From Onthophagus taurus (taxonomy: Eukaryota; Arthropoda; Insecta; Coleoptera; Scarabaeidae), in assembly GCF_036711975.1 (NCBI RefSeq), contig NC_091968.1, forward strand, positions 806,001-870,000: a stretch of DNA of 64,000 nucleotides, given 5' to 3'. The notes beneath the pieces were generated by a model. It was given only the letters and a program-made list of their open reading frames with translations, made no database searches and was not told the origin of the DNA. A program made the translations under genes and the position numbers. This document shows positions 1-60,000 of the stretch, piece by piece. Each line of letters starts with the position of its first letter. Positions within the stretch are counted from its first letter, which is position 1.

Positions 1-106
1 TAAAGGATTTCCATTAGTGATAAACAAATTTGGAAGGATATCCACGTATTTTTAGCTATCTCAAGAATTTTCAACAATTCCAAAGGAATAGAAGAAAGAC
101 AAAAAA

Positions 107-583
107 TTGAAACAACTTCGAGAAAAACAAAGAATGGAGAAGAATAGGAATACGACATCAACAAGAGAGAATTTAACAACACATAAATTTCATAAAAGAG
201 TTACAAATATGTCAAAGACACCGTTTAATCAAAACGAAATGAATTTACTAGAAAAAGGACTGAAATATTCCATATATAAAACAACCAACCTCAGAAAAAC
301 AGCATTAGAACTAGAAGCAGCTACGAGAGGACTGCCAAAAGAAGAAGAAATACACAAAACCTTACAACAAATACTAATGAAAGAAGAAACTAAAATAACA
401 AAAAGGAAGAAAAAGAACAACGAAAAAACAGAAAAGAAAAGGAAAAATGCAGAAAAGACATTGAAAACCATCAAAGAGAAAATAGAAAAAAATGATTTAA
501 TCTTTACTAAGGGCGATAAAAGTGCAGGTTTAGTCATTTTGGATAAGATAAATTATATAGAAAAAACCGAAAAATCCTACTAA
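107..583 (+). pseudogene. Penelope-like element, N-terminal region
   Basis: This is a lysine-rich stretch of about 158 codons lying before the reverse transcriptase. Its end, around GDKSAGLVILDK, matches the segment that precedes the polymerase core in PLE proteins. The frame is lost near 575-585: the sequence from about 576 continues in another frame into the reverse transcriptase. No start codon can be chosen with confidence. The highly charged, repetitive composition is normal for this part of PLEs. Confidence 0.7.
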
Positions 584-1622
584 CTCCTTCCATGAAAAAG
601 TCAAGAAAATAATAAACAATAGTAAAACTACTTTAACGAAATATGGCAGAAATGTAAGATCAATCATCCCAATGAACCCGAAAATACCTAGATTGTATGC
701 ATTGCCTAAGCTGCATAAGCAGAACATGCCCATAAGACCAATAATAACCAGCATCGACTCAAGTACTTACAAAATATCAAAATTTCTAATAGACATTTTC
801 AAAACAAATATTAACTTCCAACCAACACACACTATTCGGAATAGATCAGAAATAATCACAGAACTGAGCACAATGTCACTGCCAAAAGATTTTACCATTC
901 TATCCTTCGACATCGTCAACCTGTATACCAACATCCCCACCAGACAAACATTGAACATTATTAAAGACATTCTATCACATAACATAACAGACCTAAATGA
1001 TCGTAATAACATTTTCAACCTATTCGAGATCAGTTTACAACAAAATTTCTGCAAATTCAATAATAATATATATTCATACGAAGAGGGTTGGGTGAATGGG
1101 GTCTCCTTTGAGCAGATCTCTGACATATTTCTAAATGAGATAGAAACTAAACTTATAATTAATAAAGATAATAATCCATATTTTGAAAACATAAAATTTT
1201 GGAAAAGGTATGTAGATGACATACTAGTCATTGTTAATACTAAAGACAACAACACTATAAACAGGATTCATAAATATATTAACTCAATACACAGCAAGAT
1301 ACAATTTACGATAGAACAAGAGAAAAATAACGAAATAAACTACCTAGACATAAACATAAAAAGAACACAGGATAACGGTTTTATATTTAACACATACAGA
1401 AAACCAACACAGACAGATGCATATCACTGTAACGCACATAAACTAGCTGCTTTTAGATCACACATACATAGACCATACAATTCAAAAATGAACACAGAAA
1501 ACCTTACCACCGAAATAAATACAATCTACCAAGTTGCGAAAAATAATAACTTCCCAACTTACATAATAAATAATATTATAAACAAACAACAGAAAAAACA
1601 AAAAATAATTGTACCACTCTAA
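576..1622 (+). pseudogene. Penelope-like reverse transcriptase
   Basis: The reverse transcriptase core of a PLE. The segment PRLYALPKLHK lies early, FDIVNLYTNIP (first catalytic aspartate, motif A) is near 905-945, and RYVDDILVIV (the catalytic DD pair, motif C) is near 1205-1236. PLE reverse transcriptases are related to telomerase and normally prime on nicked target DNA. The frame runs to a stop at 1620-1622, before the endonuclease is reached. In intact PLEs the two domains are one protein, so this stop marks a second frameshift. Catalytic residues are intact but the protein is interrupted. Confidence 0.85.
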
Positions 1623-1788
1623 AAAATCAACACAATGAAGATCAAAGTATTTATTATAGAGCTATAACATTCCAAGGCAACATATCCAATAAAATAAAAC
1701 AGAGTTTAAAACAATATAATATAAATCTTAATTTCAAACCAAATAAAACATTAGAAAGAATGAAACATTAGAACTGGACGACAATGGT

Positions 1789-2136
1789 GTGTACATACTA
1801 GAGTGCGACATTTGTAAAGCAGCGTACATTGGAGAAACAGGCAGAAGCCTTAGAAAAAGAATAAGAGAACATAAACACAAAAATAACTCCAACTTCGGAA
1901 ATCACTTAACATTTAACTCAAAACATGAATTTAACGAAGATAAAAATTCCAGAATCCTTCATCATATCAATAAAAGTTACTATTTAGAAATAATGGAAAA
2001 CTATGAAATTAATAAATTCCTCAACAACTGCCCTGATGTAACATGCCTAAACGAACAAATTATATCTACAAGAAGACCACTATATACCTATCTCAAGCAA
2101 CCATACACAACTCCACGAAAACCTCCCGAACTCTAA
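1789..2136 (+). pseudogene. Penelope-like GIY-YIG endonuclease
   Basis: The endonuclease domain that defines canonical PLEs. The line VYILECDICKAAYIGETGRS carries the two GIY-YIG half-motifs in the degenerate form seen in Penelope (Y-I-L and Y-I-G), followed by the usual basic helix RKRIREHKHK. In the family this domain nicks target DNA before reverse transcription. It lies in a third frame relative to the upstream parts. About 165 bases separate it from the end of the polymerase frame, and that linker can still be read in pieces (KQSLKQYNINLNFKPN). Confidence 0.85.
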
Positions 2137-2516
2137 AAATAGCTGCTCTCTCTGTACCATTATATTTTTCAGTGTGTTTGATGTAGGGAGTTAATATGTT
2201 CATGTTGTAATACCTCATTTTAACCTGTTGAAAATCAACCTATTCAAAACAAGAAAATTTAAATTCAATACACGACAATCACATTTGACAGATTACCACA
2301 ACATTAAAATAGAAAATATACCATTGACAGTTTCAACATAACCTAAAATATAATAAAAAGTGATGTATGATAGCACATGTTTAGAGATTAACATTTTAAT
2401 AGTGAATTAATTCAATAAAGTATCACATACATGTTTAGTTGTTCAAAAAATTGACGTAAGTTAAAATGTAAAATTATATAATAATAGAAAGTGTTGTAAA
2501 ATTAATAACTTTAGGA

Positions 2517-2556
2517 ATTCCTGAAGATGCTCCAAAAGGAGCGAAACCGGTAGAGT
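2517..2556 (+). ncRNA. Hammerhead-ribozyme-like motif of the Penelope element
   Basis: A short structured motif sits about 380 bases after the endonuclease stop. The parts run in hammerhead order: stem I strand ATTC (2517-2520), core CTGAAGA (2521-2527), an extra T, stem II GCTCC/GGAGC around AAAA (2529-2542), core GAAA (2543-2546), the self-complementary stem III ACCGGT (2546-2551), a putative cleavage-site A (2552), and stem I partner GAGT (2553-2556, one G-T pair). PLEs are known to carry hammerheads with very short stem III. The extra T between core and stem II is not canonical, so activity is uncertain. Confidence 0.6.
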
Positions 2557-2600
2557 GATAATAAATACATTTCACATTTAAATGCAAAATTTGTTTAATT

Positions 2601-4689
2601 GAATTACCCAGGTGAAAAGAAAACAAAAATGAATATTAATTCCAAAGGAATTCCAAAGAATTTCTATGAGATACCTTTAGTCCCTAGGGCGTTATGCCCC
2701 CTTTTTTCTTCCTCAGTATAAAAAAAAGTTGGGTTGGATTAGATTGAGTTGGGTTAGGTTTGATTAAACTGGATTGAGTTACCCAAAATATTTAGAGCAG
2801 TTCCACAGGGCAGTAGTTTCTGGTTCTTGACAAAATAAATTCAAAAAATTGATCTCTCCCCCTATGGCAAATCTAGGAGTGTTGATAGGCTTGGCATACT
2901 AAAGGGCCTATTCGAATTATCTAGAGTAACCTATATGGAGTACTATCTAGCATACAAATATGAATATAACTTCATCTACATCAAATTGTAGCAAAGAAAA
3001 TAAACCTAATCATTGTAATCATTCAAAAAATTACTAAAATTTAAAACGCTTAATAGTGGCTTAACTATGGACTATTAAATTTTAAGAGAGTTATAGCGTA
3101 AAAAATGGTCGAAATATTTTTATTCTTCGTATAAGCAAGAAAGTAAAAAGAGTGGTAAAGATTAAAACGAAGAACAAAAAGTATTCGATATGTTTAAAAA
3201 AAGGTTAAAATTTAAAACAAAGCTTTTTAAAAATCATTCAAGAATTTTCTTTAAAAATTCTCTGCATACATTTTTTTTTAATCGGGACAAAAAAAATGTT
3301 TGCGAAGAATATAAGAAGAAGATGTTTTCAAAAGGGAATTATAAAGGCATGAAAGTAGTATTGCAAGTCTGTTGCTATGCGCAAAATGGTCCGGACTCTC
3401 CGCTGGTTCTTTTTAAAGCCATACCAATGGTGGTCCTAAAGGCGAAAGACCAAGAAAAGTTGTTCGTCAACTAAAATAACCACCAACCAAAAAAAATAAA
3501 TAAATACATAAAAAACCAAAAATTGGAATATGTTAATAGTCTTCATTTAGCCTCGTTAAATTAAAATTTAAAAAAAAATCTCATTTTTGATCTCAAAGAG
3601 TCTAAGTACTTTGACCTTAAACCTTCCTCCTCTATACAAATAGAAAAGAACTCTCTATATAACCATCGTACCAGAAAATAATAATTACCAGACGTGTATG
3701 GACTTTAAAAGACAGGGTTTGGCGTCGTCGTCCACTATATGTATACGTTCCCGCAAAAACTGGACGAGACTATGTCCTTAACAGTGTTGAAGATGAAAAA
3801 CAGAACCGTATTAAGGTTAAAAATTTTTTTTTAATTTCACTTATCACTATGTATTTCGAAAGATTGTTAATCAAGAAAGATTATCTATTTCATTTAAAAA
3901 TCGTTAATTATCTTTATAAAAATTGATTAAATCCCATCCTGAAAAAAGCTTCGATTGTCATCTCTCTCTCTCCTTGAAATGTCGACGGGATTCCTTTGGC
4001 GGTTGATATAGAAAAAAAGAAGCTTTAAAAGCGCGTTTAATTGTGTCTTGGGTATCGCACGCAACTTCCGAGAAGGCGTTGTTGTAACGGGGGCCACTAA
4101 GACTAACGTCTTTCGATCGCGCATTTTTTTAAAATGGCGATGCCTTCTTTTAGAGTTGCTAAACCGTTCACTATCTCGTCCGGAATTGTATAAAAAACGA
4201 TTCGACGAACCGATAATGAGTTTTAGTACTACTTCTATTAGATGATGTTTGAAAAAGGAAACGTGATCCGATGATAGGACTTCTCAAGCTATAAGAAGAA
4301 ACTATAAAACGAAAAAAATAAATAATAAAATATTTGAGATTTTTTAATTAAAATTTGCCAGGCTTATTATTAATATTTATTGATTGTTTCCCTTTTCCCA
4401 ATGAAAGGATGTAATTATGAGAGTCACAAGAAACGAGATATTTAAATAAATCGGCGATTACTATCTTGAAATTGCTACTCCCTTAAACAGGAAACGCTAA
4501 TTAGAAAATGTATATTAAGTTTGTGGTTCGAGCAACAGATCCACTTTAATTCTTCTTTTTTTACTCTAACCATATCGTTACATTGTAAAATGAAGAATGA
4601 GATGAGATTTTCAAAAATGTAGTAATATATAAAATTTAAATATTATTAATATATTTTTAGATTATGCAGTTTGAGTTAATAACTAAACA
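2601..4689. other. Intergenic stretch, no recognised gene
   Basis: AT-rich sequence with a T/G-rich imperfect run (GGGTTGG/GATTAG-like) near 2730-2775. A small open frame at 3190-3474 is lysine-rich and unlike any family I know. A less AT-rich patch at about 3945-4250 looks more exon-like or regulatory than its surroundings, but no frame in it is recognisable. Confidence 0.5.
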
Positions 4690-11889: not shown

Positions 11890-14280
11890 CTCAATTGTGA
11901 TTTATTGATGCATTAGGAATATTTTTTATTCATAACGTCTTTCTCCATCAGTTTTAGTACTTATGTTGTAGTTGATTTTATTAAGAAAAATCGTCCAATT
12001 TTGACATTTTGTGATTTATGCCATATCACTAGAGTCTGGTGATAGATAAATATGAAATAAGAGTGGATTATGATTTATGGATGCATTAGGAATATTTTTT
12101 ATTCATAACGTCTTTCTCCATCAGTTTTAGTACTTAGGTTGTATTTGATTTTATTAAGAAAAATCGTCCAATCTTGACATTTTGTGATTTATGCTATATC
12201 ACTAGAATCTAGTGATAGATAAATACGAAATAACTATCAACTGTGATTTATTGATGCATTAGGAATATTTTTTAATCATAACGTCTTTCTCCATCACTTT
12301 TAGTACTTATGTTGTAGTTGATTTTATCAAGAAAAATCGTCCAATTTTGACATTTTGTGATTTATGCCATATCACTAGAGTCTAGTGATAGATAAATATG
12401 AAATAAGAGTGGATTATGATTTATGGATGCATTAGGAATATTTTTTATTCATAACGTCTTTCTCCATCAGTTTTAGTACTTAGGTTGTATTTGATTTTAT
12501 TAAGAAAAATCGTCCAATCTTGACATTTTGTGATTTATGCTATATCACTAGAATCTAGTGATAGATAAATACGAAATAGCTGTCAACTGTGATTTATTGA
12601 TGCATTAGGAATATTTTTTAATCATAACGTCTTTCTCCATCACTTTTAGTACTTATGTTGTAGTTGATTTTATCAAGAAAAATCGTCCAATTTTGACATT
12701 TTGTGATTTATGCCATATCACTAGAGTCTGGTTTAGATAAATATGAAATAAGAGTGGATTATGATTTATGGATGCATTAGGAATATTTTTTATTCATAAC
12801 GTCTTTCTCCATCAGTTTTAGTACTTAGGTTGTATTTGATTTTATTAAGAAAAATCGTCCAATCTTGACATTTTGTGATTTATGCTATATCACTAGAATC
12901 TAGTGATAGATAAATACGAAATAGCTGTCAACTGTGATTTATTGATGCATTAGGAATATTTTTTAATCATAACGTCTTTCTCCATCACTTTTAGTACTTA
13001 TGTTGTAATTGATTTTATCAAGAAAAATCGTCCAATTTTGACATTTTGTGATTTATGCCATATCACTAGAGTCTGGTTTAGATAAATATGAAATAAGAGT
13101 GGATTATGATTTATGGATGCATTAGGAATATTTTTTATTCATAACGTCTTTCTCCATCAGTTTTAGTACTTAGGTTGTATTTGATTTTATTAAGAAAAAT
13201 CGTCCAATCTTGACATTTTGTGATTTATGCTATATCACTAGAATCTAGTGATATATAAATACGAAATAACTGTCAATTGTGTCAATTTATTGATGCATTA
13301 GAAATATTTTTTATTCATAACGTCTTTCTCCATCACTTTTAGTACTTATGTTGTAGTTGATTTTATTAATAAAAATCGTCCAATTTTGACATTTTGTGAT
13401 TTATGCCATATCACTAGAGTCTGGTGATAGATAAATATGAAATAAGAGTGGATTATGATTTATGGATGCATTAGGAATATTTTTTATTCATAACGTCTTT
13501 CTCCATCAGTTTTAGTACTTAGGTTGTATTTGATTTTATTAAGAAAAATCGTCCAATCTTGACATTTTGTGATTTATGCTATATCACTAGAATCTAGTGA
13601 TATATAAATACGAAATAACTGTCAATTGTGATTTATTGATGCATTAGGAATATTTTTTATTCATAACGTCTTTCTCCATCAGTTTTAGTACTTAGGTTAT
13701 AGTTGATTTTATCAAGAAAAATCGTCCAATTTTGACATTTAGTAATTTATGCTACATCATTAGAAACTGGTGATAGGTAAATATGAAATAAGAGTGGATT
13801 ATGATTTCTTGATGCATTAGGAATATTTTTTGTTTACAACGTCTTTCTCCATCAGTTTTGGTACTTAAGTTATAGTTAATTTTATTAAGAAAAATGGTCC
13901 AATTTTGACATTTTGTGATTTATGCTATATCACTGGAAATTAGTGATAGATAAATATGAAATAAGTGTGGATTGTGATTTCTTGATGCATTAGGAATATT
14001 TTTTATTCATAAGGTCTTTCTCCATCAGTTTTAGTACTTAGGTTGTATTTGATTTTATTAAGTAAAATCGTCCAATTCTGACATTTTATGATTTATGCTA
14101 CATCACTAGAAACTGGTGATAGATAAATATGACATAAGTGTGGATTATGATTTCTTGATGCATTAGGAATATTTTTTATTCATAACTTCGTTCTCCATCA
14201 GTTTTTATACTTAGGTTGTATTTGATTTTATTAAGCATATCGTTCAATTCTGACATTTTGGGATTTATGCTATATCTGAC
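11890..14280. repeat. 173-bp satellite array, dimeric higher-order structure
   Basis: About 14 tandem monomers. The anchor TGCATTAGGAATATT recurs at 11909, 12082, 12255, 12428, 12601, 12773 and onward, a 173-bp step with occasional 172. Two monomer types alternate. One has TATGTTGTAGTTG, CAATTTTGAC and ATAAGAGTGGATT; the other has TAGGTTGTATTTG, CAATCTTGAC and the palindrome CACTAGAATCTAGTG. The working unit is therefore a dimer of about 346 bp. From about 13620 rightward the alternation breaks down and monomers become more diverged, as expected at the edge of an array. Confidence 0.95.
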
Positions 14281-14422
14281 AGCTTGAGGAGTCTTCAAAA
14301 TTATAATAATTTCAATTTATTTATATTTGAAATCTTCATGCTTACCATTGTGTTGGATGTTAATTAAAAAATTAATTAAAGACAATTTTGCACTTTAACA
14401 ATGGAAAATCCTTTATTTTTCA

Positions 14423-14461
14423 GCTTTTACCGGTTTCGCCCTTAGGGCATCCTCAGAAAGC
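14423..14461 (-). ncRNA. Hammerhead-ribozyme-like motif, left arm
   Basis: Read on the minus strand: stem I GCTTT, core CTGAGGA, one T, stem II GCCC/GGGC around TAA, core GAAA, palindromic stem III ACCGGT, A, and stem I partner AAAGC. Stem I pairs perfectly over 5 bp although its sequence differs from the motif at 2517-2556. Confidence 0.6.
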
Positions 14462-14616
14462 AACGTCAGTTTTCGAATACATTAAAATACTTAAGTAGAT
14501 TCATATAACAAATTAAAAACCTTTTAAAGGTATATAAATTGGTGTGATAAGAAAAATTAAAATTTAAATTATTGCGACTGAATTCAGCGTGGGTTCACAA
14601 ATTGAAAACTGACGTT

Positions 14617-14655
14617 GCTTTCTGAGGATGCCCTAAGGGCGAAACCGGTAAAAGC
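14617..14655 (+). ncRNA. Hammerhead-ribozyme-like motif, right arm
   Basis: This is the mirror copy of the motif at 14423-14461, on the plus strand: GCTTT (14617-14621), CTGAGGA (14622-14628), T, GCCC/GGGC (14630-14640), GAAA (14641-14644), ACCGGT (14644-14649), A (14650), AAAGC (14651-14655). The motif itself is intact and identical to its partner. Confidence 0.6.
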
Positions 14656-14702
14656 TGAAAAATAAAGGATTTGCCATTGTTAAAGTGCAAAATTGTCTTT
14701 AA

Positions 14703-16205
14703 TTTCATCAATTTACCGGGATCGGTTTCGTAATAAAATATAAGCCACAAAGTTGCAATAAATTACGGTGCTTAACACAACTAAAATTTTCCACACCATG
14801 TTGAAAGGAAGGGAAATAATGCTTCTCCAGTTTCCGGTTTCTTTGAATGGAATTGGTAATATGTCATTAATATTTAACAATTGTGTACCAAATTATTGAA
14901 TAAATAAGTTTGGTTGTTAGGAATCAAATATATTATCACGAAATACCGGGAATTTCATTTCACTGTCCCACATAAAATGCAACATAGCTTAATAGAATAG
15001 GTCTTGGGTAGTTTTGCAAAGGAAAAATTTTACTTGGAAAAGGTGGCGTCCTTATGATAACTCTGAGTTTTCGTCTTAACTTTAATGAGCTTAATTAACA
15101 TACAGTTCGTTTTTTTTCTATAATACCTGTGAAATTGTTTTAAAGTTGGAAAAATTAACAGGGAATTTTGTTTTATCATGTTTTGAAATAAATATGTCAC
15201 ACTGACGTTTGAGCTTTCGTTATTCAAAAAGAAAAGATGCATAAAATATGTTTTTTTTAAGGTGTTTTGTTCTATTTCATTAATTTATAGCACGTTTTTA
15301 TAATAAATATGTACTGCGTTAAAATCGTATTTATGTAAGAATTTATTAGTACTTTAATCTCAACTATTTAGTTACTGAAAATGTTACTAAAAATCAGAAA
15401 AACAACATAAATTTTATAAGGATCCTAGATAATACCAACAGAAATCCTAAAAAATTTACATTGACAAGTATTACAGAAAAAAGCGAATTATGATTATATT
15501 GTTATTTTGCTGTCCTTCCAAACCGGGCTGTATAATTATTAATATTATCATTTACAGCGGAAGTGGTACTTTACTTGAAAATTCAGTCTAATTTTATGAT
15601 TACTGGGTTATTTCAAAGTTTAATCGAAGCTACAATTACATTTTTAGAAATTTTCAAAACCAAAAACGTTTAAAACTAAATTATTAAAACTTGTTATATA
15701 AATTAAGTCCCATTAATTATAATAACTTTTATAATTCCCTTCTTTCAGCTTTAAGTTATTAAGCATGAAGTTGGCTTCATCAATTACATATTTTAATTAA
15801 AAGTTTTAAAATAAAACAGCTTAATTTTAATAATGATAATATCTAATTAATACGTATTAAGTACAAAATAATCAATAAATTATTAAAATAAATTCGAAAA
15901 AATTAAATATAAATAAGACAATTTATAGTAACTTTAATTCTTTTATGTTGGCAATATCCACATTGCGCGTTTTTCCAGCTTTAATATGGTGGATAAACGG
16001 CGTACTTAAAAATTTGATCAAATTTAACCTAAAGCTTAACGAATTCGACGTAAAAGCTCATTTAAAAATGTTTGCTTCAGTATTACCGTTAACGAAGAAC
16101 TAATAGATCGTTAATTTATCGCGTACATACAGCGTTAAGTTTCGGTGAACTTGTCTCGTTTACGTAAAATCGCTTAAAACGAGTTGTTGTTGTCGGTGTA
16201 TTATT
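14703..16205. other. Intergenic, upstream of wds
   Basis: Mostly AT-rich sequence with no recognised gene or repeat. The last 250 bases are richer in CG dinucleotides and presumably hold the wds promoter and 5' leader, but no core promoter element stands out. Confidence 0.4.
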
Positions 16206-21515
<5,310 letters not shown>

Positions 21516-31600: not shown

Positions 31601-34600
31601 TTTCCGAAAAATTTTTGTCTTAGGCGACGCAATTACACAGTATAGGGTAAACGCACCAGTGTTTGACCTATTAAGGATATTTTAATGTCAGTGTTTGACC
31701 GAGTCATATTATTTTTCTTGTAGATCCCTCTGCCTTTACATAAAATGATCAAAATATGATCAAATACACATCTGATTCATTTAAAGTTGCTTACCCTACA
31801 TATAAAATATAACATCATAAAGTAATATTTTTTAAAATTAAAAAGAATAACTGTATTTCGCATTCAGTGTTTGACCACTTTGATTAAATGTTTATACTTT
31901 TTGACTCTTTAAATGGAGCAAAATGTTCTTGACTTAACTTTTCACCCAAATTTTGTGTTTTCCAACTGGTTTTTGTAACAGGACTGCTGAATGAAACAAC
32001 CATTCAACCAGTAGCATTTCTTCATCAGAATTTAAAAATGCTGGTGGGCTCATTTTCAAATTGCATTGGTATTTTTCCTTCTTCTTTATAAATAAGAGTT
32101 GACTTTGGTACATTAAACATCTTGGCTGCTTTTTCATAAGATAAACCCCTACTTCTTGCATCGAAAGCCTTTTGAAGATGAGAGGCTTCGTTGTCATATT
32201 GGTACTGAAAAAAGTGAACCTGATTTATATTTGCTAAATTTTCCATATAGATTTTCCATTTTTGATAATAATTGACCACTATAAGAGTCAGTGTTTGACC
32301 TACCTTTTATCCTTTTAATTTTACAGATTGATTACTGTTTAAGTGTGTTCAATTACTTTTATTGTTATAAAAAAGGCTTAAAAAAAATAGAAAAAAACCA
32401 AACATTTACACTTATATTTATATTAGGCTTAAATATTTATAAAATTCAAAATCGGTTAAAAAACTCAGTGTTTGACGTGTTTATGTCCTATAAATGACCA
32501 AAAGAAGAATCAGTAATTGACCGCATATTTAAACTGATTGTATCTTACTTTTAAAGTATAAAAGTTTTGGTCAAATACTAAACAGTTTAAGCAGCAAGTT
32601 TTAAAAACAGGTATTACACATTTTTCCATTTTATTAATCAAATATAAATACTTGTGAGATTATACCACAACCAATTCGTCTAGTATTTGACCATTTGGTC
32701 AAACACTAATTTTTAATTAAATTTAGAACTACTAGTCTTTGACCGCCTTTATTTTAACAAATAATTAATTAAAGCGGTAATTTTTTAATACAACCAATAA
32801 AAAACATTATTAAATCACTGGCAAACAAAAAAAAACCACCATACATGCAAAAATGGCTGAATAATACGACCTTGTTTAGGCGAATTTCTAAACATAAAAA
32901 TTACCATTTTTAGCACGATGTGAGTAGGCCGGCAGTTAGCGCAAATTAAACAACAAGAACTCAAGAACGGTATGATCGTAGACTTTTTGCGTAGTAGGAG
33001 GTGGAGAAGAGACTGGTGGCTATTTGTGGACAGATTTATTTTTTTTTATATATTCCTTGGAACCTTATTTTTAAATTTTTTTTACAAAAACGGTCAAACA
33101 CTGACCAACGGTCAATTACTGGCTTTTTACCCTATGTTCATCTGTTTCTGACTCGTTGTTGCAAAGTCGACAAGTTCGACCGTTAACTTGTCCAATGTGG
33201 AAGAGGTGGTATTTTAGGGCCAGGAAACATGAGAGCGTCCTTAGATACCCTGTGCTGAGGCATAAAACCTCAAATTCAGGAATAGTGCCATACTGGTTAC
33301 CCAATTTATACAACCCATCATCATTACATTCAAGTACAACCATTAAAACATTGGGGAAGTCGCCTCTACCTCTGTCAACGTCAGGAATTTTCTGACGTTT
33401 TTTCTGATACCTATTTTGCACACAGGAAACTTTTTGTTCGATAATTCTGTCATTTTATTTGCTTGTACTATGTCTTGTATTTGTAATGAATTTTTTGTGC
33501 CTATCTATTAGTATCTATTGTCTGTCGTTTCATACATAGGTCACATTTTCCATTTTTGTTTTGATTACAAAGCTCACAACCTGTTCTTTTTTCTGCTGCT
33601 TCTCCTACAGACTCTTTCTCGTTTACATCTGTAATTGTTTCAACATCATTTCTGTCTCCCTCCAACATCTTACGAATTTGTTCCAAGTGTTCCTCGTTTT
33701 CTATATTTTCAACTATATCAGTTATTATTATTATTGCTGCCGGGCTGAGGAGGGCGGCCCCTCTCGTTACCGCGACCTATAAGATCTATTGTAACTTTAG
33801 CCCTCCAAAGGTTTAGGGCAAATGTAGGTCCTTAATGAACCTTAGTATTGTCCTGAGGTCTTGAACCTTTATGTCGGTAGGTAACAGGGGAGTTTTACCG
33901 AAGACGTTGTGCCTTAGACGTCCTCTGGCGACGCAATTGCACAGTATATGTTCAGCAGTTTCTCAGCTTGTCCAATGTGGAAGAGGTGGTATTTTAGGGG
34001 CACATGGCCGGTTAGGTAGCCTGAGAGCGTTCTTAGATCCCCTTTGCTGAGGCATAAAACCTCTTTGGTTTTGTTTTGCGACTTGATCATACTCTTCGCT
34101 TGTCTGTGACCTGGAAGTTCTTTCCAGCGTAAGGCTATCTTTGAAGCCTCCCAGTTGTTGATTATTTGTTTTAGGTAGCTTTTTTGTAGTCCACATCCAG
34201 GTTGGGGTCCAATGAAGGGCGTGTTTGCTGCCTCTTTGGCCAGCTTGTCGGCCTTCTCATTGCCCTCAATGTTGCTGTGACCTGGAACCCACCATAGGGT
34301 AACATCATTGCCCCTAGCGAGTTCTCTCAGGTTGTTGGTGCACTCTCTGATCAGTGCGGAGCCACACGTGTAGGCCTGAATTGCCTTTAAGGCCCGCCTT
34401 AAAGTCGAGCCTTAGGCTCGACTGTCTGTGAAAATGTTTATGGATGCACCTTTTTGTCCCTTCTGTAGGTTCAAAGCGGTGCAGAAGTTTATAGCAAGAA
34501 CTTCTGCTTGGAAAATTGTTAAGTCCGAGCTGAGGGGCAATTTGATGTGGCTATTTGGTCCACTGATGCCCATGCCTACTCCAGATCTTACTGTCTTTGA

Positions 34601-37600
34601 GGCATCGGTGTACCAGGCTAGGGCTTCTCTTTTTAGTTGAGGCCCTCCTTTCGCCCAATCATCCCTGCTACTAAATATGACCTTATACGGTTGGTTGAAA
34701 TTGTATTCCGTCGGTATAAGGTCCGTTTTAATTTCAATCAGGTGATTTAGACATGGGTCTTTGAGGATCTCGAGGTGTCCTCTGAGATTACCCTGCATCA
34801 ACTTGAGTGAAGAAACTGTTTTCAGTGATAAGGCACTTAAGGCTGCCTCCTTTTGTATATATATGTGGAGCGGTGTGAGACCGAGTAGGGCTTCCAAAGC
34901 AGCCGTCGGACAGGATCTCATTGCACCCGTTATGTTAAGACATGCTAACCGCTGGATTTGTGCCAGCTGTTGTTGAGCTGTCTTATGTTTTGTTTTTGGC
35001 CACCAAACCAATGAGGCGTAGGCGACCATGGGTCTGATTATTGCTACGTAGGCCCAATGAGCCATTCGTGGTTTGAGACCCCAGTTCCTTCCTAGGAGCC
35101 TGCGGCAGATCTGGTTTGCCATGATGGCCTTTTTCCTCACCTTATCTAAGTGTGAGTTCCAGTTTAGTTTACTGTCAAGTCTTACCCCTAGGTATTTAGT
35201 TTCTGTTTTGAGGTTAATAGTTCTGCTTTCAATTGAGGGTGCTTTTATTTGTAGCTTCCTTCTCCGAGTGAAAGGGACTATTTCGATTTTATTGGGATTG
35301 ATGCTGAGCCCATTGCTTCTGCACCAAGTACTGGTGAGTAGTAGGGCTTTCTGCATTAGCTGAGTTATGATTGAATCATATTTACCTCGGATTGTGATTA
35401 CCAGGTCATCAGCATACCCTTGTATCTTAAATCCGTTTTTAGTTAGGGTGTTCATCAAGTCATCAACTACCAGGCACCATAATAGAGGTGATAGCACTCC
35501 CCCTTGGGGACATCCTCTTAGCGCCTTTATAGTCAGCGACTCGCCTCCCAGACTGGCTGTGATCTGCCGACTTTTCAACATGGCTATACACCACTTGATT
35601 GTCGACGGATGTATGTCTTTTACGTTTAAAGCCTTCTCTATGGATTCATATGAGGTGTTATCAAACGCACCCTCTATATCTATGAAAGCACAAAGGGCTA
35701 TCTCTTTGGTTGCAATTGCCTCCTCTAAGGTGCTAGTCAAAGCATGGAGAGCGGTAATTGTTGATTTTGCTTTCTGGTAAGCATGTTGGCTAGGGTGGAG
35801 TGGATTTGTGACAAGCACTCCATTCCTTAGGTATTGATCGATTACCTTTTCCATCCCTTTGAGGAGAAATGAAGTTAGGCTAATTGGTCTGTACGCCTTG
35901 GGGTCCGCGTTTGAACGCCTACCACCTTTAGGTATGAAGACCACCTTTACTTTCCTCCATAGAGTGGGTATATAGCTAAAGCTGTAGCTAGCTATATATA
36001 GGGATATTATTATTGGGAGAAGTTCTTCTAAGCCTTTTTGCAGAAAGATAGGCAGAATTCCATCTCCTCCAGGTGATTTTAGGGGCTTGAAATTCGAGAT
36101 AGCCCACCTTACTCTGTTGGGTGTGAAAATATTCCCAGCTGTGCTGCGAACCCTACCTGATGGACGGGTTATGTCCATTACTTCAGGGTCGGCATCTGCA
36201 TGGGGGCAGACTTTTGAGGAAGGAAAGTGTGTACTCAGTAGGAGCTCCAACGATTCCTTAGCATCCTCTGTATATTTACCATCTTGTTTGCATAGGTGGC
36301 CTAGATCAGTGTTGTGATCTTTTGCCAAGATCTTATGCAGACGAGCAACTGTAGGCGTATTGTCTATGCCTTCACAGAAGCTGCGCCAGGTTTTTCTTTT
36401 GGCTTTGCGGATAGCCAAGTTATATTCCGTTAGGGCTTTTCTATAGACATCCCATGTTTGCTCGAGTTTGGAATTCCTGACTTTATTATATAGTCTTCTA
36501 ACCATGACTCGCTGGTTTTCAAGGTCCTTGTTCCACCAAGGCACATTGGATTGTGCTCTTTTGTGTTTTATTGGACAGCTTGATTCATACGCACTATGTA
36601 TGAGATTGTTTAGGTGAACAGAGGCTATTTCGAGATCCTCTCTGCTTTCAATCTTTGTTTTGATTTCATCAACCTCTTCGTCGATGTGTCTACAAAAAGA
36701 GCACCAATCAGTGAGTGAGGGGATTCTGAATTCTGTTTGTTTTGTCATGTCAGTTTGCGATTTGCGAACTAAGGCGAGGCGTGGCTAGGCTTATGTCTAG
36801 CACCTCTTGTCGACTCTTGGTAACAAACTATCTCAGTTGAGGACTGTCTCAAGATCTTAGGCTTGCTTTTACATCACAACCGAACATAGCCTGGTAAGGT
36901 GACCTTTTAATTCCATGATGATAGGCTCTATTTTTCATAAGTTGTACAAATCTAAGTCCTTCTGACCACATTTGCAGTTCTCGTCTTCCATCCAAGTCAT
37001 CAGCATACTTTGAACATCTTGATTGGCACGTTCGACACTGCCCTGCGACTAGCTATGACGAGGTTTTTCCGTGCATAATTTTCAGACCTGGCCACATTTG
37101 CGTTAAACTTTCCACAACTCGATTAGCGAATTCCCTGCCAGTGACAGACTGGAGTATCTAAGTATCTAAGAGTATCTTCGATACTTCTTCAGCAGTTTTA
37201 CTTTGTACAGGACTTAGCTGTATGAATTTAGTGAGGTGGACCTGATAAACTAAAATAAGCTTGAAATTTCCGTCAGGATTTGTTTGCATGTCTATTAAGT
37301 CTACCTGACACCGACTATTGACAAGCACTCCATTCTTAGGGTATTGAAGGTTAATTGGTCTGTGTGCCTTGGGCTCGGCGTTTGAACGCCTACCACCTTT
37401 AGGCCTTTAGGTATGAAGACCACCTTTACTTTTCTCCATAGTGTAGGTATATAGCTGAAGCTATAGCTTGTCCGTAAAGTAACGGATATAGGCGATAAAA
37501 TCATTTTAAACGGTTTATGGAAAAATCCCTGAAACGGGTCTAAAGATTTAAATTTTTTGCAACTGTTTGGTGTAGATTTTAAATTTCTTCCGCCATTTTT

Positions 37601-39913: not shown

Positions 39914-49674
<9,761 letters not shown>

Positions 49675-50915
49675 TATACTCTATTGTTTAATTTGTTAGT
49701 TCTAGTTTTACACTAGCACTGTCACTAGAACTAACACAAGACCTAGAACTAAAATAATTCGGGTTTAGCAGTCTTGAGAGACGTGCAACTAAACCCGATA
49801 TTTTCTAGTTCTAGTTTTACACTATCACTAGAACTAACACAAGACCTAGAACTAAACAAATTTAGCCGTCTTAACAGACGTGCGTTCTCGGTCTAGTGTT
49901 AGCTTTAGTGCATATTTTTATTAAACTAAAACTAGAACTAACACTAGACCTAGAACTATTCGGGTTTAGCCATCTTGAGAAACGTACGGCTAAACCCGAA
50001 TGTTTCTAATTCTAAGTTTTGTGTTAGTTCTAGCTGTAGTACTAGTGTAAAATTAGAACTAACACTAGACCGAGAACTAGAAACATTCGGGTTTAGCCGT
50101 CTTGAGAGACGTGCGGCTAAACCCGAATGATTCTAGTTCTAGGTCTAGTGTTAGTTCTAGTTTTTCTTCAATAAAAATATAGTAGTGCAACATAATAATA
50201 GCTTATGCTAACTCACTAGTACTACCACTAGAACTAGCACAAGACTTAGAACTAGAAACATTCGGACTTAGCCGTACGTCTCTCAAGACGGCTAAACCCG
50301 AATGATTCTAGTTCTAAGTCTTGTGTTAGTTCTAGTGGTAGTACTAGTGTAAAATTAGAACTAACACTAGACCGAAAACTAGAAACATTTGAGTTTAGCC
50401 GTCTGGAGAGACGTGCGGCTAAACCCGAATGATTCTAGTTCTAGGTCTTGTGTTAGTTCTAGTGATAGTGCCAGTATAAAACTAGAACTAAGAACCCGAA
50501 TGATTCTAGTTCTAGGTATTGTGTTAGTTCTAGTGATAGTGCCAGTGTAAAACTAGAACTAAGACTAGACCTAGAACTAGACTCATTCGGGTTTAGCCGT
50601 CTTGAGAGACGCACGGCTAAACCCAAATGTTTCTAGTTCTCGGTTTAGTGTTAGTTCTAGTACCAGTAGTAGGTAGCGCTAGTTAGCATAAGATATTACT
50701 ACGTCGTATATTTTTATTGAAGAAAAACTAGAACTAACACTAGACCTAGAAACATTCTGGTTGTAGGTCTAGTGTTAGTTCTAGTTTTACTCTGACACTA
50801 TCACTAAAATTAACACAAGATCTAGAACTAGAATCATTCGGGTTTAGCCGCACGTCTCTCAAGACGGCTAAACCCGAATGTTTCTAGTTCTCGGTCTAGT
50901 GTTAGTTCTAATATT

Positions 50916-52226: not shown

Positions 52227-53080
52227 TAATATTACTATGTCGTATATTCTTATTGAACAAAAACTAGAACTAACACTAGACCTAGAACATTCGGGTTTAG
52301 CGCTACATCTAGTTCTAGTGTTAGTTCTAGTTTTACTCTATCACTAGAACTAACACAAGACCTAGAATCATTCGGCTTTAGCCGTCTTGAGAGACGTGTG
52401 GCTAAATCCGAATTTTTCTAGTTCTTGGTCTAGTGCTAGATATTACTATATTGTATATCTTTATTGAACAAAAACTAGAACTAACAGAAGACCTAGAATC
52501 ATCCAAGTTTAGCCATACTGAAGATGCATGGCTAAACCCGAATGTTTCTAGTTCTAGTTTTACACTGACACTATCACTAAAACTAATACAAGACCTAGAA
52601 CTAGAATCATTCGGGTTTAGCCATACTGAGAGACGTGCGGCTAAACCCGGATGTTTCTCAACATCTCGAATTTTCCTAGTGTAATTTTTGCTTAAAACTG
52701 ACCAATAGCAACCTTTCTTTTTGGCGCTTCAATTTGAAAGCACTCCTCCGAATTAAAAAATACAGTATACTTAGTACATTTTTTATTTTACTAGTTTCCC
52801 CACTTAAAAAAGAAATAACTTGATTGTTTATAATTTTTAGAAAATTTAGTTTAAATTATTTCTTATAATAACTAATTAAATTTGTTTCTAGAAATAATCT
52901 TTTTAAAGAAAAAAAGTTTAAATTACCATAACCTTGCCAAACAAGTATGCAAATATTTAATCTAATATTTGACTTAAGTCTCTTCAGGTCAACAATCTAT
53001 GAAATGGGTAAGTTTTCATACTCGTATCGATACTATTTTTTTAAATAAATAAAATCAAAATCAATAAAAAAGTTTTTATT

Positions 53081-57000: not shown

Positions 57001-60000
57001 AAATGATTTGCAATAGTCGTCGATGCTTCGTTGTTCAATGCTGTCAACTCCAGTAATTTACTGTATATCCTGGACTTCCTATCAAAATATTGAATAATGA
57101 TAGGAAATATTTTACCCCACTTGTCTCAGTCATCTCACGCGCTCATTTGTGTGTTGTTTCCTCTCGTGTCAACATGTCTTCTAGCCATGGTTGTCGTAAT
57201 TCTCCCGACAATTTTTGTTACATTTGTGGTGATCTTGTCATTAAAAAACACCAGAGAAACATTACAAACTTTGTTAGGAAAGTGTATTACTCCTATTTCG
57301 GTATGAGACTTGGGGAGCAGAACAAATCATAGGCACCTCACAAAGTGTGTTATATTTGTGTAGAAGATCTCAGGAAGTGGCCATCAGATAAAAAAAATAT
57401 TCAAAATTGGCATTCCGATGATTTTAATGGCTATAACTCTAAGAATAAAAGAGATATAGTATACCACAACCTTCCTTCTGCAATGCGACTTGTAGCTCAT
57501 GGACCAGATGTGCCTGTACCTCTGCCTCCAGCAACGCTAGGTGAGATGAGCTTTAGTGAATGAAGATGACTGTGATTTCCAAGATGCTTCAGATTATGCC
57601 ACCTCACAACTTTTCGCGCAGTCTGAGCTTGACTTACCAAGGAGAATACTCAACTATTGGGTTCTAGACTAAAAGATAAAAAGCTGCTGGCTGCTGGAAC
57701 ATCTTTTTATCAGTACATATTTAGAGATCGTGAATTTACTGACTATTTCAAACAAGAAGGCGAGTTGGTCTACTGTTGTGATGTTTCGGGTTTGGTTCAA
57801 AAGTTTGGAATTGAATGCAAAGCTCATAAATGGACGTTTTTCATTGATTCTTCAAAAAGAAGCCTGAAGGCGGTACTCCTGCACAATGGTAACACATATG
57901 CTTCTCTTCCTCTAGGGCATTATGTACACCTCAAAGAAAATTATGAGAATTATAACTGGATAACCGGATAGTTTGTGGTGATCTGAAAGTTTTGGGCATG
58001 ATGTTTGGTGTGCAGGGAGGAAACACTAAGTACCTATGTTTCGTTTGTGACTGGGATAGCAGAGCAAGGTTTGAACACTGGACTAAAAAAGTATTAATAT
58101 TCATTTGGTTATTTCTTTCCATTTCAATTTTAATATAATTGAAATAAAACTATGTGTATTTATAGATGGATTTTTTAATTTTCAGCTCTACCGGTTTCGA
58201 TCGTACATTCAATCATCCTCAGGAGCAACGTCATTATACATATTTTTAAAAAACATATTTGTTATTCAAGCTGTTATCTTCTGCCATGTATGTTCATGGC
58301 GCATAATGGGCAAGGAAAGCATATTGAATATTATTGAATTAATAACAAGGTAACAAAGAGGAGAAGAATTAAGTAATCAAAAAGATAACAGCTTGAATAA
58401 CAAACAAATATGTTTTTTAAAAATATGTATAATGACGTTGCTCCTGAGGATGATTGAATGTACGGTAGAGTTGAAAATTAAAAAATCCATCTATAAATAC
58501 ACATAGTTTTATTTCAATTATATAAAAAAGTATTATAACCCAACAAACATTGGGTTGGGTTGGGTTGGCAATGAGTGCAAAGGTTTTATCCAAATATCTA
58601 TGTAATGTATACATTCTTGATATATGGATTTAATTTCGGTATTAATCTTATTGTGTGCATTTTCGCTAATTTTATATTTTCAAAGAGTTTCTCACTTTTA
58701 AAGGAAGTTATGTTCGATTCTTTGACTTAACAACTCTGTCATTCCTTTAAATATACAAAGCACTTCGACTATTGAGTTTTTCTCCTGTCAATGATCAATG
58801 ATTGAAGATGAAACAATTATAATTTTTAATATTTTATTATAATTTAATTTTTTAAATTATATTTTTCATTCGTTGTTAGTAAATGATTTGCAATAGTCGT
58901 CGATGTTTCGCTTTTCAACGCTGTCAACTCCAGTAATTTACTGTGTATCCCGGATTTCCAATTAAAGTATTGAATAATGATAGGAAATATTTTACCCCAC
59001 TTGCCTGAGTCATCTCACGCGCTCATTTGTGTGTTGTTTTCGCTCGTGTCGGTGGTTAGAAGACATGTTAGCCGTCAGACTAGCCGTGGTTGTCGTAATT
59101 GTCCCGACAATTTTTATTACATTTGTGGTGAACTTGTCATTAAAAAACACCAGAGAAACATTACTTAATTAACTTTGTTTGGAAAGCGTATTACTCCTAT
59201 TTTGGTGTAAGACTTGGAAACCAGGACAAATCATGGGCACCTCACAAAGTGTGTTATATTTGTGTAGAGAAGATCTCAGGACGTAGCCATCAGGTAAAAA
59301 AAAAATCATTCAAACTTGGCATTCCGATGGTGTAGAGGAAACCAAAAAATCACAGTGATGACTGTTATTTTTGCTACTATGATTTTAAGGGCTATAACTC
59401 TGAGAATAAAAGAGATATAGTATACCACAACTTTCTTTCTGCAATGCGACCTGTAGCTTATGGACCAGACGTGCCTGTACCTCTAGTGAGTCTGATGTGA
59501 ATGAAGATAACTATGATTTCCAAGATCCTTCAGATTATGCTACCCCACAACTTTTCGCTCAGTTTGAGCTTGACTTACCAAGGAGAATGCTGAACTCTTG
59601 GGTTCTAGACTAAAAGAAAAAAAGCTACACGCTGCTGGAACATTTTTTTATCAGTACACATGCTTCTCTTCATCTAGGGCATTATGTACACCTCAAAGAA
59701 AATTACGAGAATTATGACAGTTTGTGGCGATCTGAAAGTTTTGGGCATGATTTTTGGTCTGCAGGGAGGAAATACTAAGTATCCATGTTTCATTTCTGGC
59801 TGGGACAGCAGAGCAAGGAATGAACACTGGACTAAAATAGTATGGCCAACCCAACAAACAGTGGAGCCAGGTGAAAAGAACGTTTTCCACGAAGCTTTAG
59901 TCGATTCCAGAAAAATTTGTCTTTACCCACATCAAGTTAGGACTCATGACACAATTCGTCCAAGATTTCAGTGACTGCTTTCAATACCTCTGCATTTCCA

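Follow-up and report, generated by a model that had tools for sequence, protein, structure and literature searches.

Hammerhead-like motifs with covarying stems at Penelope-related loci of the beetle Onthophagus taurus

Introduction

Minimal type I hammerhead ribozymes of Penelope-like elements (PLEs) were described by Cervera and de la Pena (2014) and by Lunse, Weinberg and Breaker (2017), and dimer cleavage of PLE hammerhead variants is stated in the title of the 2017 paper. A palindromic stem III, together with dimers, is described in a supplementary figure legend from 2011 (Figure S8; PMC3088659), and tandem PLE hammerheads may self-cleave as dimers according to a passage of PMC7761336, which also describes what they do in vivo, and their activity there, as a mystery. 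PLE hammerheads are widespread. For the PLE of Anolis, passages of PMC11167929 place C3 and G8 of the hammerhead before the start codon and the cut 26 bp downstream of that codon. There, the RNA was cut only when the protein of the element was present, ribozyme mutants did not alter insertion in vitro, and RNA-seq ends at the cut site were not found. De la Pena and Flores (2001) refer in their title to an extra nucleotide in the hammerhead of the viroid CChMVd.

Here, we analysed a stretch of 64,000 nucleotides (the window) from the 290.8-Mb genome of Onthophagus taurus (G000), for which an initial annotation had reported hammerhead-like motifs at Penelope-related loci. These motifs are very probably minimal type I hammerhead ribozymes that PLEs carry in their 3' UTRs and terminal repeats (pLTRs) and that cleave as dimers; we infer catalysis, dimer formation and a role in the life cycle. 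Dimer-cleaving hammerheads of this minimal type I are already known from PLEs, and the motifs most likely belong to that kind.

Results

Four copies of a hammerhead core in the window

Direct reading and a motif search gave four copies of CTGARGAT-N-CGAAACCGGTA in the window, at the positions given in the initial annotation. The gapped motif CTGARGAT-N8-30-CGAAACCGGT matched at 2521 (+), 14429 (-), 14622 (+) and 58190 (-), with no match in 100 dinucleotide shuffles of the window. The first copy (2517..2556, + strand), situated in the 3' UTR of a PLE at 92-2640, consists of stem I at 2517-2520/2553-2556 (ATTC/GAGT, one G-U), stem II at 2529-2533/2538-2542 (GCTCC/GGAGC) and the palindrome ACCGGT at 2546-2551, with a cleavage site predicted after A2552. 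The second and third copies (14423..14461, - strand, and 14617..14655, + strand) share stem I GCTTT/AAAGC and stem II GCCC/GGGC, and are not independent as they form part of the left and right arms of one inverted repeat. The fourth (58185..58226, - strand), on the left arm of another inverted pair, has stem I GCTC/GAGC and stem II GATTG/CGATC (one G-U). A dead copy, recognized by direct reading at 58440..58470 (+), keeps stem I and CTGAGGATG and has lost ten bases including GAAACC; it gave no match in the window motif search. The window copies contain the hammerhead core CUGANGA ... GAAA ... U16.1 H17.

The Rfam hammerhead models, whose use with Infernal had been proposed as a check, missed all four copies in the window, at the gathering threshold as well as at E ≤ 10. 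Against the whole genome, RF00008 found nothing, and control genomes were equally silent, which makes this comparison uninformative. The best Rfam match in the window, MIR7533 (14409-14669), spans the inverted repeat and was rejected as a microRNA. Separately, many copies of a short, mutually inverted repeat at 20745-21231, 47158-47265, 49724-50910 and 52228-52606 resemble several Rfam microRNA families below their cut-offs; this is probably a satellite-like or fold-back repeat.

The motifs are associated with Penelope-like elements

The PLE at 92..2640 (+), identified by DNA identity to the L082 element and by tblastn, is 5'-truncated and frame-broken. It is 95.7% and 98.6% identical, in two stretches, to L082, which carries an open frame of 839 aa, and its protein remnants at 92-571, 570-1610, 1607-1762 and 1771-2133 correspond to tblastn pieces of 93-100%, the segment at 1771..2133 (+) being a GIY-YIG endonuclease remnant (Pfam PF01541, E 6.1e-07). 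A Pfam search of the 19 ORFs in the window that reach 150 aa did not reveal the element, whose pieces are short or weak, with nothing in 92-583 and 561-1622; it was found instead by a protein search within the same genome and by tblastn. With the 839-aa ORF as query, PDB gave nothing at E ≤ 1.

The reverse transcriptase domain RVT_1 was detected in the L082 ORF (E 1.7e-09). It occurs together with GIY-YIG in L085; in L082 and L083, RVT_1 was the one domain of the two found at E ≤ 0.1. GIY-YIG is also present in L031 and L035, and the GIY-YIG region used as query has at least 152 matches in the genome. In L081, two PLE units lie inverted to each other, with 99.9% identity across 3175 bp; each has a frame of 834 aa, one hammerhead upstream of the ORF and one in the 3' UTR. 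The distance from the upstream H17 to the first ATG of the ORF is 78 nt in L081 and 61 nt in L083. For the family of the 14 kb copies, there is one case on contig C7, where a PLE ORF match is followed 673 bp downstream by a relative of the 14374 arm. The matches listed for the 58 kb family showed no link to an ORF, and this family is tied to PLEs by motif, tail and layout only. The association with PLEs proposed initially is supported by the RVT_1 and GIY-YIG domains of associated ORFs, by the position of the 2517 copy in a PLE 3' UTR and, in one case, for the 14 kb family. Elsewhere in the window, at 33914-36784 (-), reverse transcriptase and RNase H domains are encoded by open frames that look like a second retroelement, of another kind than PLE.

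These data bear on whether the window copies do anything at present. A narrower reading, compatible with minimal hammerheads cleaving as dimers, is that the fold, once active, was inherited with the element and that the window copies are dead insertions without function. The 2517 element has lost its 5' part and its frames are broken, the arm at 58382-58528 lacks ten bases including GAAACC, and at 14 and 58 kb there are short 3' ends with no ORF; against this, the core and stems are intact in the four motifs, and the nearly full-length copies identical at 99.9% over 3175 bp indicate that a family has been active recently. We consider the chances of this reading to be evenly balanced.

Copy number in the genome

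The window motif extended by an A is present in 318 + 328 = 646 copies in the genome versus 0 for the reversed-pattern controls, and the pattern ACDHGT with a pyrimidine insert, which does not overlap with the former, in 760 + 803 = 1563 copies versus 1 + 1. With a purine insert, ACNNGT gave 102 + 76 matches (178) versus 5 + 5 in the controls. For ATNNAT, the 133 + 110 matches compare with 82 + 21 in the controls, so many of them are due to chance, and a wide pattern leaving stem III unconstrained (1382 versus 919 controls) was too noisy and was left out of the counts. Note that the core letters are set by the search patterns, and their constancy is therefore not itself evidence; the counts, far above the reversed-pattern controls, together with the core in the window copies, uphold the hammerhead-type assignment. 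The tallies of neighbours, palindromes and inserts given below rest on the matches listed, about the first 100 places per pattern. At position 7, which is free as in hammerheads, 100 listed cores have A 50, T 38, G 10 and C 2. A separate feature of the matches listed is a series of at least 12 identical cores in the same orientation (ACATGT, extra A), in steps of 16-73 kb, at G000:C7:27341410-27793858, suggestive of a large repeated segment.

Stems I and II covary

Covariation was scored on stems I and II of an alignment of 50 distinct trimmed rows (A1), picked for five palindromes and for stem II regions of 10 nt or more, so that stem III is 100% paired by construction. In these 50 rows, 89.8% of the cells are paired versus 62.4% after shuffling, 145 cells are changed on both sides versus 49.2, and the covariation score is 0.739 versus 0.222, none of these values being reached in 500 shuffles; as rows are related within families, the shuffles overstate their independence. 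When the partners were slid, 25-46% of the cells were paired, with scores of 0.05-0.17. Both sides change in all four pairs of stem I and in four of the five pairs of stem II, G10.1-C11.1 having been kept mostly constant by the pattern searched. Of the five measures, one displays no excess: 8 of 9 pairs are changed on both sides versus 6.8 after shuffling, a value reached in 103 of 500 shuffles. An earlier count on 37 distinct stems, which included two spurious overlapping ATATAT rows excluded from A1, gives the same picture for pairs 2-5 of stem II and pairs 1-4 of stem I, and not beyond. Overall, stems I and II covary, and the compensatory changes first noticed at the window loci extend to the genomic copies.

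Could the conserved block instead be a protein-binding or reverse transcription-priming RNA hairpin of the PLE, its likeness to a hammerhead being incidental? Passages on the Anolis element locate the start of reverse transcription within the RNA, close to the pLTR-ORF junction, and describe ribozyme mutants as without effect on insertion (PMC11167929); in our elements, no more than about 100 nt separate the tail from the motif. Against this stand a whole hammerhead core with covarying stems, far above controls, the freedom at position 7, and the single changes of C3 or G8 that abolish cleavage in the Anolis work (PMC11167929); we find this explanation quite improbable.

Stem III is mostly palindromic and differs between families

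Stem III of these motifs is a loopless six-base palindrome that differs by family (ACCGGT, ACATGT, ACTAGT, ATCGAT or ATATAT). In the one-insert register, 82 distinct cores among those listed have four or more pairs in stem II; stem III is palindromic in 72 of them, and in 34 of 41 when these are collapsed by stem II start and hexamer. Among listed ATNNAT cores, 12 of 13 with stem II are palindromic versus 9 of 38 without, for a chance level of 25%, and 58 of the 70 distinct ACDHGT cores listed are palindromic versus 46% expected from column frequencies. Listed cores without stem II in the AC searches are also palindromic above chance (9/12 and 16/28) and may be decayed true copies. Exceptions exist: some families have non-palindromic hexamers such as ACTTGT, ACGTGT is another exception, and one of the four L081 hammerheads reads ACCGAT.

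With no loop, the inner pair of stem III can form only between molecules. A stem III that is mostly palindromic across families would therefore favour pairing between two RNAs; were such pairing needless, the inner bases of stem III would be free. Cofolding of the four window copies predicts that two strands are favoured by 4.6-9.0 kcal/mol, with none of the four predicted dimers in the complete active form: the six-base stem III duplex appears only in the fold of the 2516+ copy, which is without stem I, and the other three, two of which are nearly identical in sequence, pair otherwise. The suitability of the palindrome for dimers, as first suggested, agrees with the 72 of 82 listed cores; its presentation as new does not stand, given the 2017 title on PLE hammerhead variants and the legend of Figure S8 in PMC3088659. 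We can also imagine, as a speculative and rather unlikely extension, that each family's own palindrome is a self-recognition tag through which ribozymes pair and cut mainly with their own kind, and that with the near-obligatory nucleotide after A9 these motifs form a distinct, dimer-only hammerhead subclass with family-specific partner choice. If so, PLE families would process only their own tandem or paired transcripts.

An extra nucleotide follows A9

The extra T between the core and stem II, initially called invariant, is constant in the four window copies; genome-wide, the nucleotide after A9 is mostly T, is A in some families and is rarely C or G. For the 84 listed cores with at least four pairs, the best register has one insert in 82, two inserts in 2 and zero in none. 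The inserts of these 82 listed cores (T 50, A 29, G 2, C 1) come from three separate searches and do not reflect genome frequencies; in whole-genome counts, pyrimidine inserts (646 and 1563) outnumber purine ones (178). The extra nucleotide had also been proposed as new, a claim that is not supported in view of the unpaired A after A9 in CChMVd (PMC3705267) and of the arrangement implied for the Anolis PLE (PMC11167929), as given in passages of these papers. From the latter, C3 and G8 before the start codon and a cut 26 bp downstream would imply CUGANG-AUG, with the same extra U; the A9-to-A17 count in the 2517 copy is 26.

A start codon as the reason for the extra T was discarded in the case of L081, L083 and L087: the AUG within their core begins a frame of 8-12 codons. 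This frame (L081:4049-4075, L083:6457-6495, and L087) lies upstream of the main PLE ORF and is possibly a uORF that cleavage would split.

Inverted pairs with 3' ends outward

An inverted-repeat search delineated a pair of PLE-type, pLTR-like 3' ends with a left arm at 14374..14474 (-) and a right arm at 14604..14704 (+), 101 nt long, 99% complementary and 129 nt apart; the 14374 arm has 35 matches in the genome, window copies included. The second pair, recognized from its inverted arms and a tail motif, comprises a left arm with a 3' tail (58091..58282, -) and a right arm in which no tail was found (58382..58528, +), with 59 genome matches, window copies included. Two further observations concern the surroundings of the first pair. 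Next to it, at 13800-14276, a tandem repeat of 173 nt is present in three direct copies that are 88-89% alike along 90 nt. In addition, sequence resembling the gtcagttttcgaatacattaaaata interior of the 14374 element (window 14463-14490) adjoins the 3' end of the L083 element, around 538-620, and a relative of the 14374 arm lies at C6:14184596, which suggests that one PLE inserted into another.

The 100 ACCGGT copies listed include 18 neighbour pairs within 10 kb, every one of them inverted and with its 3' ends outward, an arrangement also found in 19 of 21 pairs of the 58 kb family and in 6 of 8 of the 14 kb family. For the ACDHGT matches listed, it holds for 13 of 27 neighbour pairs, and for 10 of 11 when stem II is identical. 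Direct copies are also present, in L081 and in 12 of the 27 listed ACDHGT neighbour pairs (++ or --), and pLTRs in direct order around an ORF are accompanied by an inverted pLTR in L081 and at C10:9156340(-), 9158475(-) and 9159163(+). A tail is found in one arm of 12 of 21 pairs, in neither of 9 and in both of none, using a loose pattern drawn up once the sequences had been read (L047, among the 12, is a loose match, and at least the tail of L040 was missed). A search for target-site duplications (TSDs) at 24 loci, 3 of which had no arms found, gave a repeat of at least 8 at 2 of 21 scored loci versus 12 of 200 controls, the boundaries being uncertain owing to the tail and to some wrong arm choices.

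The close inverted neighbours (18 of 18 within 10 kb among the 100 listed ACCGGT copies) and arms of 69-1124 nt would also be expected if the motif acted as DNA, namely as a fold-back or cruciform site in the terminal inverted repeats of a DNA transposon. The reverse transcriptase and GIY-YIG domains of the associated ORFs, the direct copies (L081 and 12/27 listed pairs), the arms often differing by their tail and a TSD signal no higher than in controls make this explanation highly implausible. The window pairs, with 3' ends outward as described for Penelope, are insertion products that probably arose when both cut strands primed reverse transcription. According to the passages of PMC11167929, both strands are cut by the Anolis protein and then extended, which could make inverted pairs; self-priming is the explanation preferred in PMC3846280. 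In an inverted pair only one arm would be a ribozyme on each strand, and cutting would thus occur only with another transcript.

Discussion

We propose that a single molecule would be unable to close the loopless six-base stem III on itself, and that two copies, within one tandem transcript or on two transcripts, would pair through it, each then cutting after its H17 base (A in the window). PLE transcripts would in this way be processed at two places, 60-80 nt before the start of the ORF and within the 3' UTR. More than 2,200 pattern-matched copies with several palindrome types, including some almost identical, nearly full-length elements, coexist in one genome, and the palindrome differences between families offer a natural test of whether selection maintains dimer pairing. 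From a practical standpoint, the Rfam hammerhead models miss this form in the window. Note that the family-specific set of palindromes and the near-obligatory insert were not met in the open-access passages covered by our literature search, which lay outside the key 2014 and 2017 papers, and we do not claim that they are unpublished.

The closest described systems, the minimal type I PLE hammerheads, share the core, the minimal or absent helix III, the pLTR location and, on their side, dimer cleavage, as reported in passages of PMC6155905 and PMC7761336. Compared through the citing literature, the present set differs in that palindromes are counted and found to differ between families, and in that, where stem II is clear, nearly all cores fit a single nucleotide inserted after A9. 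With the Anolis Poseidon element PAc it has in common the placement at the pLTR-ORF junction and, as we infer from the same passages, the CUGANG-AUG arrangement and length of the 2517 copy; the AUG of PAc starts the main ORF (PMC11167929), whereas in L081, L083 and L087 it opens a frame of 8-12 codons. The plus-strand hammerhead of CChMVd likewise has one unpaired nucleotide after A9, which is an A in a plant viroid and here mostly a U in a retroelement (PMC3705267). Penelope elements of Adineta vaga display, in the passages of PMC3846280, pLTRs in direct and inverted order, mostly head-to-head, with an optional tail on one inverted pLTR; there, some copies have TSDs of 8-10 bp; here, the TSD search gave no signal above controls. 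The word 'hammerhead' is absent from that article by text count. Finally, retrozymes carry canonical hammerheads in short, tandem, non-coding repeats, whereas the motifs described here have a loopless stem III and occur mostly as inverted pairs, with coding elements present.
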